Part shown: positions 60,101 to 63,906 of the stretch, piece by piece
Layout: every line of letters begins with the position of its first letter
Position numbering within the stretch: the first letter of the stretch is position 1
Source: Candidatus Moanabacter tarae
GTDB lineage: Bacteria; Verrucomicrobiota; Verrucomicrobiia; Opitutales; UBA2987
Assembly: GCA_003226295.1 (NCBI GenBank)
Contig: CP029803.1
Location: 1,793,477-1,857,476 of the forward strand
Direction of reading: 5' to 3'
Length of the DNA stretch: 64,000 bases
Notes under the pieces: model-generated
Databases searched by the model: none
Seen by the model: only the letters and a program-made list of their open reading frames with translations
Told to the model about the DNA's origin: nothing
Translations under genes and position numbers: made by a program

Positions 60101-61195
60101 ATGGGAAACAAACCTGTCACCATCCTGGGAGGAGGCAACACCGCCTTCTCGATCGCGGCCAAACTCACAATTGAGGGCTTCGATATAACCCTTTGTGAAA
60201 TCCCAGGCTTTAAAGAAACGCTAGAGCCGATTAAAACTGACAACAAGATTCAGCTACTTGGCGCTGCTGGGGAGGGATCTGCGACGATTCATAATGTAAC
60301 ATCCAACATACAGCAAGCCGTTGAAGCATCTGATCTCATCCTTTTAATCGTTCCAGCCTACGCACATAAACCATTCGCAAAAGCCTGTGCAAGTCACCTG
60401 AGTCCAGAACACACTGTCGTCCTTATGCCAGGGACTCTTGGGGCTCTAGAATTCTCTCAGATCCTTTTCGAAGCAGGCCGATCCGGCGTTACTTTAGCTG
60501 AGGTCGACACCGCACCCTACGTCTGCCGAAAAACAGCGCCGGATACAGCTACTATCTGGGGAATCGTTGAGAGTCTGGGATTAGGGGTTTTACCAGCAAA
60601 GAAGACCGAAACCGTTCTCTCTAGACTTGATCCCCTTTTCCCTGGCATTTACTCTTACCCCGACGTAATGGCCTGCGGGCTCGCCGCTATGAACCCAGTC
60701 GTTCATCCAGCGGGGGTCTTGCTCAATGCCGGACGTGTTGAATATTCAAGAGGAGAATTTTGCTTCTATGAGGAGGGAGTTACACCTTCGGTTGCAAAAG
60801 TGATCATGGCCGTTGACTCTGAACGACGCGCTATTGCAAAAGCACTGGGCTATAATCTTTCCCCAGTCCATGATGCCTTTCACGAGGCGGGATTTGGACC
60901 TAAAGGTGACCTATGGGCCACCATCAACGGAAGCTGGATGCTCACGCGGCTCAAGGCCCCGGGAACATTGGAAAGCCGTTGGCTCACCGAAGATATTCCC
61001 TACGGCATAGCCGCTTGGAGCTCGGTGGGAAGGCAATACAAAGTCGCAACTCCTACCATGAATGCGGTCATCGATATCGGTTCCGTGGTAATGGGATTCG
61101 ACGCCAGATCGGCAGGGCGGGGTGTCGAAAAATTGGGGATTGAGAATATGTCGTTACCCGAGTTGAAGCAATTTCTTCAGGAAGGAATAAGTTAA
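60101..61195 (+). CDS. NAD/NADP octopine/nopaline dehydrogenase-family protein
   Basis: The 364-residue protein has a Rossmann motif at its start (ILGGGNTAFSIAAKLTIEGF) and the opine-dehydrogenase C-terminal region with MNPVVHPAGVLLNAGRVEY, where the His is a likely catalytic residue. The class reductively joins an amino acid to a 2-oxoacid. Partners are unknown. It is followed by the tandem Ddl gene after 287 bases. Some opine dehydrogenases take part in metallophore synthesis, but no metallophore synthesis genes (nicotianamine-synthase-like or histidine racemase) are visible here. Confidence 0.9.
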   Translation: MGNKPVTILGGGNTAFSIAAKLTIEGFDITLCEIPGFKETLEPIKTDNKIQLLGAAGEGSATIHNVTSNIQQAVEASDLILLIVPAYAHKPFAKACASHLSPEHTVVLMPGTLGALEFSQILFEAGRSGVTLAEVDTAPYVCRKTAPDTATIWGIVESLGLGVLPAKKTETVLSRLDPLFPGIYSYPDVMACGLAAMNPVVHPAGVLLNAGRVEYSRGEFCFYEEGVTPSVAKVIMAVDSERRAIAKALGYNLSPVHDAFHEAGFGPKGDLWATINGSWMLTRLKAPGTLESRWLTEDIPYGIAAWSSVGRQYKVATPTMNAVIDIGSVVMGFDARSAGRGVEKLGIENMSLPELKQFLQEGIS

Positions 61196-61482
61196 CTGAG
61201 TGCCTATAATTTCCCTTTCTAATCAGTAGCACATATAACCCTAAGTAGTCCGGACTCTCGCCGAATATCTATTCTCCGACACTGCATTTTATCGGCCCTT
61301 AATTCCGTTGCCCTGTCTTCATTCGTTGGCATTCCTTTCCATAACCCCGATCAATCTGCCCTTGCTACTTTGGTTTCGATCTTGGTGCGACCGTCCATCT
61401 ATTATTAATCCTTCATTTATATTTCCAATAGTACTGCCGAGCGTAAACACCCATTTGGTTGAGCTCGTCTAGCATTTTGGCC

Positions 61483-63906
61483 ATGCAGCAGCTTCGGAAA
61501 CTCAAAATAGCCCTCCTGTGCGGCGGGCCATCGAAGGAGCGGGGAATTTCACTCAACTCGGCGCGGTCGGTTTGCGATCACCTTCATTCGGAAAACGTCG
61601 AAATCATTCCCTTTTACATTTCCCTCAGGAACCGAATCCATCGATGTTCCCGCGCACAGCTATATTCCAATACACCCGACGATTTCGAGTTTAAGATTGG
61701 AGGCAACGGTGATTCTCTGAACAAAGTTGCACTTTCGAGACTGTTGAGAAACATCGATCTAATCTTTCCTGTCGTCCATGGAACCATGGGCGAGGACGGC
61801 CAGCTACAACGAATCCTGGAAACAATCGGCCTTCCCTTTATCGGCTCATCATCAAAAAGCTGCCGACGGTCCTTCGATAAATTCAGAGCCCGGGAATTTC
61901 TCCAAAAATGCAACTACTACACAATCCCAACGCTCCTTTTGAAACGACCCGAGAAAAACCACAGCAGGAGACTCCAGGAATTTTTTCGAAATCAGTCTCT
62001 AAAGAGAGCAGTAGTTAAACCAGCTAATGGAGGATCCAGTATTAATGTATTCTCGGTCTCTTCAGTCACCGAATGTCTCGATCGTATCCGATATATCCTG
62101 ACCGATAAACTTTGCCATCGGATCATCGTGGAACCCTTCTGTCTAGGCACCGAATTTACCGTTATCATCATCCAGAATTGTCAAGGCAAACCAGTAGCTC
62201 TTATCCCAAACGAAATTGAAACCGACTACAGTGGAAACCAAATCTTCGATTATCGACGGAAATATCTACCAACTCAACAAGTAACATATCATTGTCCTCC
62301 CCGTTTTCCGCCCAACAAGACAAAAGAAATTCAGTGCCGCGCGGAGCAACTTTTCTCTCTGTTCGAACTAAATGATTTTGCAAGGTTCGATGGATGGCTC
62401 CTGCCTGACGGCAAGATTTGGTTTTCAGATATTAATCCCATATGTGGGATGGAACAAAACAGTTTCCTCTTCATGCAAGCAGCGCGAATCGGGCTTAGTC
62501 ACCGCAACATACTACAGTACGTTCTCGAAAGTGCTTGCCAGCGTCAGGGCATTCCAGTTCCAAAATCTCAGGCTCCGAAAAGGCAACAGCGGATTCCCGT
62601 TGACGTCGTCTTCGGTGGAGATACTTCCGAACGACAAGTCTCAGTGATGAGCGGCACTAATGTCTGGCTCAAGCTCATAAATTCGCGCACCTACGAACCT
62701 CGGCCTTGTTTTCTAGACCAACAAAAGAATATTTGGATCCTTCCCTACGCCTATGCCCTCAACCACACTACTGAAGAGATTGCCACGCTCTGCCGCCGAG
62801 CAGAAACCAATGAAAGATTACTGGCTCCGTTTCGAACACGGTGTCTCAAGAAATTGGATGCCATAGAAACTCCAACTTCTGAGGAAAATTTCCTCCCCGA
62901 AAAATCCCACTTGGCTGATTTTGTGAAAAACTCCCCAGGTGTCTTTATAGCTCTCCATGGAGGAATTGGAGAAAACGGAACTCTCCAAAGCTTACTCGAA
63001 AAATCGGGAGTACCTTTCAGCGGATGCCCTGCCGAAGCATCACAACTTTGCATGGACAAAGTCAAAACGGCGAAAGCTCTTGAGCACCTTCGTTCAAAGG
63101 GAATCTCCACAGCCTTAAAAATGAAGGTCCAGATTCAACGGATAGTAGGTTTAGAACCTCGTGACTATCAGAATCTCTGGAAAGATCTCAGGGAACACCT
63201 CCAAAGTGAAACTCTGATAGCCAAACCGATCGGCGATGGGTGTTCTGCAGGAATCGCACGTCTTTTTACATCAGATGACCTCAAAGCCTATTGCCAGTAT
63301 GCTCTTCAAGGAGCCCCTCTCATACCAGATGAAACCCTCCAAGGACAAATGGGTGTCATCGAGATGCCAACCCACCGAATGCAATCAATCCTTTTCGAAG
63401 AATTCATCGAGACTGATCGAATTGAAATCATAAGGGATCGCCTTCACTGGAAAAAAAGGACCGGATGGATCGAAACCACGGTCGGCGTACTGCAAACGAA
63501 TGAATGCCTCCGTGCGTTTTCACCAAGCCTCATCGTTGCCGAAGGCAACGTTTTAAGCTTGGAAGAGAAATTTCAAGGAGGCACCGGGATCAACATAACC
63601 CCACCGCCATCCTCCCATGTCTCCCAATTCGCAATCAACAGGGCAAAAGCGCGTATAGAACAAGTAGCCTCCGTCCTAGGAATTCGCGGCTTCGCCAGGA
63701 TCGACGCATTCATGAATGTCGAGAACGGAAAACTTATTATTATCGAAGCTAACACCGTACCGGGCTTAACTCCGTCCACTGTACTCTTCCAGCAAGCATT
63801 GACCGAAATACCATCCCTCTATCCGGTTGATTTTCTGGAGAAAATTCTCGACGGCTCGCTAAATAGAGTGGCCAAATCCGCCTCAAAAAAGGAATTTTAT
63901 CAGTAA
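61483..63906 (+). CDS. Tandem D-alanine-D-alanine ligase-like protein
   Basis: From the ATG at 61483 the protein is 807 residues and contains two full Ddl units. Unit 1 (about 1-360) has LLCGGPSKERGISLNSA, VVHGTMGEDGQLQ (99-106 core), VVKPANGGSSI, FARFDGW and FSDINPICGME, where the metal-ligand Glu is Asp. Unit 2 (about 370-807) has VVFGGDTSERQVSVMSG, ALHGGIGENGTLQ (the motif GEDG is GENG), AKPIGDGCSAGIARL, FARIDAF and EANTVPGLTPS, which is fully canonical. Ddl makes D-Ala-D-Ala for peptidoglycan. A TTG at 61459 would add eight residues. The unit order suggests two active sites or one catalytic and one structural. Confidence 0.88.
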   Translation: MQQLRKLKIALLCGGPSKERGISLNSARSVCDHLHSENVEIIPFYISLRNRIHRCSRAQLYSNTPDDFEFKIGGNGDSLNKVALSRLLRNIDLIFPVVHGTMGEDGQLQRILETIGLPFIGSSSKSCRRSFDKFRAREFLQKCNYYTIPTLLLKRPEKNHSRRLQEFFRNQSLKRAVVKPANGGSSINVFSVSSVTECLDRIRYILTDKLCHRIIVEPFCLGTEFTVIIIQNCQGKPVALIPNEIETDYSGNQIFDYRRKYLPTQQVTYHCPPRFPPNKTKEIQCRAEQLFSLFELNDFARFDGWLLPDGKIWFSDINPICGMEQNSFLFMQAARIGLSHRNILQYVLESACQRQGIPVPKSQAPKRQQRIPVDVVFGGDTSERQVSVMSGTNVWLKLINSRTYEPRPCFLDQQKNIWILPYAYALNHTTEEIATLCRRAETNERLLAPFRTRCLKKLDAIETPTSEENFLPEKSHLADFVKNSPGVFIALHGGIGENGTLQSLLEKSGVPFSGCPAEASQLCMDKVKTAKALEHLRSKGISTALKMKVQIQRIVGLEPRDYQNLWKDLREHLQSETLIAKPIGDGCSAGIARLFTSDDLKAYCQYALQGAPLIPDETLQGQMGVIEMPTHRMQSILFEEFIETDRIEIIRDRLHWKKRTGWIETTVGVLQTNECLRAFSPSLIVAEGNVLSLEEKFQGGTGINITPPPSSHVSQFAINRAKARIEQVASVLGIRGFARIDAFMNVENGKLIIIEANTVPGLTPSTVLFQQALTEIPSLYPVDFLEKILDGSLNRVAKSASKKEFYQ

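Follow-up and report, generated by a model that had tools for sequence, protein, structure and literature searches.

Introduction

Most walled bacteria cannot do without D-Ala-D-Ala ligase (Ddl), an enzyme targeted by the drug D-cycloserine. One polypeptide normally means one kind of active site; in CarB, the large subunit of carbamoyl-phosphate synthetase, two ATP-grasp units within a single chain carry out different steps, and the protein described here likewise has two ATP-grasp units per chain. In the superphylum to which our organism belongs, wall enzymes are found joined in one chain, as described for the Chlamydial MurC-Ddl fusion and the verrucomicrobial MurC-MurB fusion, and ddl is an essential gene of Verrucomicrobium spinosum (PMC12283558). 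Among Ddl enzymes of lactic acid bacteria, a single residue distinguishes two activities, Phe at position 216 going with depsipeptide and Tyr with dipeptide formation (PMC5996685).

Here we analyse a gene of Candidatus Moanabacter tarae that resembles these fusions in placing wall enzymes in one chain; whereas they fuse different enzymes, it fuses two Ddl units. The literature that we searched yielded no relevant description of a tandem or double Ddl; the enzyme is a known one, in an architecture that is new. An ATP-grasp protein of archaeal pseudomurein was considered as a precedent and set aside, since the authors who describe it see no firm connection with Ddl (PMC11915815).

Results

One reading frame encodes two Ddl units

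The window (the whole stretch of 64,000 nucleotides that was analysed) contains a single 807-aa frame in which a first-pass annotation, made from the sequence, had recognised two Ddl-like units (Table 1). This is borne out by profile searches, in which both Pfam domains occur twice: Dala_Dala_lig_N (PF01820, 161.9 bits) and Dala_Dala_lig_C (PF07478, 139.2 bits) each match two stretches of the protein, far over the cut-off. The whole protein also passes TIGR01205, with 311.9 bits against a cut-off of 245.65, but does so only as the sum of its halves, either of which alone misses the cut-off (scores in Table 1). The tandem protein has no CarB family match in the Pfam list or among the NCBIfam matches listed. 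The two units share ~21% identity. Each is like a standard Ddl (PF01820 + PF07478, TIGR01205) in fold, domain order and most catalytic residues, and the protein is unlike one in having two units per chain and fixed departures at positions 150, 216, 270, 275 and 281 (E. coli DdlB numbering; see below).

Translation of the tandem gene could alternatively begin at a TTG further upstream, at 61459. Downstream of the gene lies a 5S-23S rRNA operon in convergent orientation, the remainder of this rRNA region being a 5000-base masked stretch. Upstream, at a distance of ~290 bases and on the same strand, lies a gene for a PF02317 octopine/nopaline dehydrogenase-type protein (window 60101-61195). Scanning for promoters and terminators gave no signal above chance, and PADLOC returned zero matches.

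Table 1. Window coordinates of the tandem Ddl gene, its two units and selected active-site residues (residue equivalents in E. coli DdlB numbering).
Feature	Position	Strand	Evidence
Tandem D-Ala-D-Ala ligase gene, 807 aa	61483..63906	+	One uninterrupted open frame; Pfam domains doubled; orthologues in f7 and G480
Unit 1, residues 1-367	61483..62583	+	TIGR01205 197.8 bits alone; model aligned to T. thermophilus Ddl
Unit 2, residues 368-807	62584..63903	+	TIGR01205 119.6 bits alone; own model aligned to C. burnetii Ddl
Unit 1 Tyr261, kept Tyr216-equivalent	62263..62265	+	Invariant in 9 tandem proteins
Unit 1 Asp316, replacing metal ligand Glu270	62428..62430	+	Asp in 9/9 tandems, Glu in 45/45 singles
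Unit 2 Cys587, replacing Ser150	63241..63243	+	Cys in 9/9 tandems, Ser in 45/45 singles
Unit 2 Phe697, replacing Tyr216 (dipeptide/depsipeptide switch position)	63571..63573	+	Phe in 9/9 tandems, Tyr in 45/45 singles; PMC5996685
Unit 2 Glu755, kept metal ligand, Glu270-equivalent	63745..63747	+	Invariant in 9 tandem proteins

The tandem form recurs in three lineages and is the sole detectable Ddl

We searched 373 sampled genomes of the order, 344 of which gave any match, and 388 sampled from across the phylum. Within the order, the full-length tandem was found in our genome and in every one of the eight genomes sampled from a second family (f7); in the f7 genome G088 the tandem form is split across two contigs. 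The remaining ~335 matching genomes of the order gave partial, lower-scoring matches only. The phylum sample adds one tandem, in a genome of a different class (G480), and the other genomes of the order to which G480 belongs again gave only partial matches. A contig scan with the single tandem protein as query returned just one distant, single-unit relative.

These orthologues bear on two points raised in the first-pass annotation. One was that a chance assembly might have joined two genes: because independent assemblies contain the full-length form too, each unit being 46-52% identical to its counterpart in the present protein, misassembly is excluded, and the orthologues in f7 and G480 likewise rule out a frame artefact. 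The other was that a Ddl-Ddl protein would be a PVC variation, which holds to the extent that the form is kept beyond its own genome, but it is not phylum-wide and appears in three separate lineages among those sampled.

The genome of origin is a single contig of 2.63 Mb, 98% complete, and in a profile search of it the Ddl N-terminal domain was confined to the tandem gene. Further PF07478 matches in this genome fall in frames of 1065 and 482 aa without a PF01820 match, which are taken to be other ATP-grasp enzymes, of CarB and biotin-carboxylase type. No second protein with the Ddl N-terminal domain was found in this genome, in the eight f7 genomes or in G480. Looking for another ddl in the genome, as had been proposed, thus revealed none, and the tandem is the sole detectable Ddl.

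Several other members of the phylum (L094, L101, L103, L108, L111, L114 and L116) have frames of ~617-648 aa of which Ddl forms the C-terminal part, the match beginning at ~residue 320.

The usual cluster ddl has probably been displaced

In two relatives from the same family as our genome (G001 and G002), murG, a murC-murB fusion, ddl, ftsQ, ftsA and ftsZ follow one another in order (MurC, MurB and MurF were assigned by profile, and the other cluster gene names were read from translations). The fusion in these relatives fits a placement of the phylum as Verrucomicrobiota, such a fusion being described for Verrucomicrobium (PMC12283558). No ddl lies between murB and ftsQ in our genome or in the three f7 genomes read (G033, G009 and G048). 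Because the family relatives keep ddl in the cluster and the examined tandem genomes are without one there, the tandem enzyme has probably displaced the usual cluster ddl, presumably through horizontal transfer. At the two f7 loci that we read, the tandem gene stands behind purine-synthesis genes (purF, purD and purN by reading) and a GNAT gene (L062 4898-5377, L063 6081-6611), and the latter overlaps the start of the tandem ddl by four bases, ATGA. The overlap suggests that the GNAT gene and the tandem ddl are translationally coupled in f7, the GNAT family itself not being specific.

In a quick maximum-likelihood tree of 66 rows, the unit 1 sequences all fell together (SH-aLRT 99), as did those of unit 2 (SH-aLRT 100), both groups having long branches and standing apart from the cluster Ddls of the order. 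Descent of unit 1 of our genome from the family's cluster ddl was rejected (AU p 5e-78), and a grouping of all unit 1 sequences with the single Ddls of the order was weakly rejected (p 0.026). The arrangement of units 1 and 2 as sisters, on which the distinction between an internal duplication and a fusion of two paralogues turns, had a support of 56. Any two of the three tandem lineages are separated by a similar distance (44-52% identity per unit). From the patchy distribution, along with the tree and these equal distances, we infer an origin by horizontal transfer and loss of the old gene; the alternative is a tandem that was ancestral and then lost many times.

As to the surrounding pathway, MurF is present in five of five tandem genomes checked, and canonical alanine racemase (alr) in four f7 genomes checked and in G480. 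Because our own genome has this masked stretch beside the rRNA operon and may have others, two absences from it are provisional: canonical alr, for which only weak matches appeared (G000:C1:1730958-1731629, 884073-884750 and 1381566-1382213), and a separate murC, in place of which only an Mpl-type protein (338 bits to mpl and 237 to murC, under both cut-offs) and matches read as MurD and MurE were found. Two longer racemase-like proteins of this genome carry a D-serine-dehydratase-type C-terminal domain. In its wall cluster (L140 7510-8490, L147 8381-9829), murB stands alone where the family relatives have the murC-murB fusion.

Both active sites are conserved, each with its own departures

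Active-site positions were mapped onto E. coli DdlB by multiple alignment, and nine tandem proteins were compared with 45 single Ddls of the order. Ser150, Tyr216, Glu270, Pro275 and Ser281 occur in 45/45 single Ddls, and the changes that the units show at these positions are fixed in 9/9 tandems and found in 0/45 singles. Unit 1 has Asp270, Ser/Cys275 and Phe282 in every tandem, and Gly at 69 in seven of the nine, and keeps Ser150 and Tyr216; unit 2 invariably has Asn69, Cys150, Leu212, Phe216, Thr281 and Val282, and keeps Glu270. The motifs named in the first-pass annotation were read correctly, namely D316 of unit 1 (= E270 of E. coli DdlB) and GENG (N498) and GCSAG (C587) of unit 2. Its statement that the units differ holds, but it overlooked F697 and T766 (Thr at the Ser281 position) in unit 2 and C321 (the Pro275 position in this protein) in unit 1.

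The ATP/metal set (K97, K144, E180, E187, K215, D257, E270 and N272) is complete in unit 2, and complete in unit 1 except for the replacement of E270 by Asp. The Glu15-Ser150-Tyr216 set is intact in unit 1 and reads Glu/Cys/Phe in unit 2. Across the nine tandems, invariance at 19 pocket positions (17/19 in unit 1, 18/19 in unit 2) exceeds a background of 29-31% (p 3e-8 and 4e-9), which argues, at the level of sequence, that neither half is simply decaying and that both pockets are constrained. Since every functional enzyme family conserves its catalytic positions, such invariance points to constraint and to no particular function.

In 9/9 tandems, unit 2 has the Phe at 216 that defines the D-Ala-D-Lac (Phe-type) ligases, and unit 1 keeps Tyr. 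The D-Ser ligase VanN combines Tyr at 216 with Arg at 282, and the VanM row also has Arg at 282. Arg at 282, which we take to be diagnostic of VanN-type D-Ala-D-Ser ligases, was found at the Leu282 position of neither unit: unit 1 has Phe there and unit 2 has Val. Because unit 2 has Phe216 and neither unit has Arg282, a D-Lac-like unit 2 appears to fit better than a D-Ser one; because the rest of its pocket is unlike both the D-Lac and the D-Ser types, the acceptor of unit 2 cannot be named from sequence. It had earlier been suggested that the tandem might make a peptide of different composition, or that one half might be regulatory. Both are possible readings, and the idea of altered specificity gains a published basis because unit 2 has the Tyr to Phe change at the switch position (PMC5996685).

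Predicted structure

The full-length AlphaFold2 model has a pLDDT of 81.6 and a pTM of 0.82, and alignment of unit 1 in this model to T. thermophilus Ddl gives Z 31.7 and rmsd 2.3 over 319 residues. Modelled alone, unit 2 has a pLDDT of 71 and a pTM of 0.67; its alignment to C. burnetii Ddl gives Z 23.6 and rmsd 4.4 over 315 residues. The alignment of each half to known structures, also proposed in the first-pass annotation, was made at fold level: unit 1 is predicted with high confidence to have the full Ddl fold, and the prediction for unit 2 is of lower confidence. Compared with the D-Ala-D-Lac ligase LmDdl2 (PDB 1ehi), unit 2 is alike in having Phe at 216, and its model aligns with Z 23.0 and rmsd 5.2 over 342 residues; it is unlike LmDdl2 in adding Cys150, Thr281 and Val282 and in being half of a tandem.

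Discussion

We consider the best explanation, at a probability of about one half, to be a D-Ala-D-Ala ligase with two active sites that has replaced the usual single Ddl and supplies the terminus of the stem peptide, with unit 2 altered in acceptor specificity. Both units would bind ATP and Mg2+. Unit 1, with its normal Glu15/Ser150/Tyr216, would make D-Ala-D-Ala, perhaps slowly owing to Asp270. Unit 2, with its metal and ATP site intact but with Phe216 and an acceptor pocket that contains Cys, Thr and Val, could use another acceptor or a broader range of them, such as D-lactate or some other D-residue. The two halves would probably sit together like the subunits of an ordinary Ddl dimer, here built into one chain, and the D-Ala-D-Ala (or D-Ala-D-X) from the tandem enzyme would be added to the stem peptide by MurF. 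Several points count against this explanation: the Glu to Asp change at the metal ligand may cripple unit 1, a loop of unit 2 differs (EEKFQGGTG), the Tyr/Phe rule comes from another lineage, no half alone reaches the TIGR01205 cut-off, and the genome itself yields no canonical alr match.

The main rival, a somewhat unlikely one, is that catalysis falls to one half, the other being a pseudo-subunit, regulatory or structural, which binds ATP or D-Ala without ligating, so that the fusion fixes a heterodimer. Either half is altered at positions invariant in the 45 single Ddls, a dimer arrangement recurs in Ddl crystal structures (PMC6899670), and unit 2 is modelled with lower confidence in isolation (pLDDT 71) than as part of the whole protein, although the two alignments differ by one sequence. 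A scaffold would however be expected to lose some of the ATP and metal residues, and these are present in both halves (with Asp for Glu270 in unit 1), in pockets that are similarly constrained.

A more specific version of the two-site explanation is that the halves make two termini, D-Ala-D-Ala from unit 1 and D-Ala-D-lactate or another D-Ala-D-X from unit 2, and that the gene has spread between distant Verrucomicrobiota lineages, displacing the native ddl; we regard this full version as doubtful.

It is improbable that both halves make D-Ala-D-Ala, with the tandem adding only dose or stability and the residue changes being neutral or mutually compensating. The E. coli Y216F enzyme retains dipeptide activity and the tandem gene is the sole Ddl, as this would have it, but neutrality poorly predicts the same unusual residues fixed in three lineages at 44-52% identity. 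Least probable is that the tandem is a ligase of another pathway and not the housekeeping Ddl, leaving a wall without, or with a changed, D-Ala-D-Ala terminus, for although the f7 gene lies outside the wall cluster behind purine-synthesis genes and a GNAT gene, and our genome is without murC in the cluster and without a canonical alr match, MurF occurs in the tandem genomes checked and canonical alr in four f7 genomes and G480, and no other Ddl is available for the job.

The tandem enzymes offer a natural experiment on the residues that set dipeptide/depsipeptide specificity, on the reason for the Ddl dimer, and on the displacement of an essential wall gene. If it is true that the two halves make different products, mixed stem peptides would be built from one gene.
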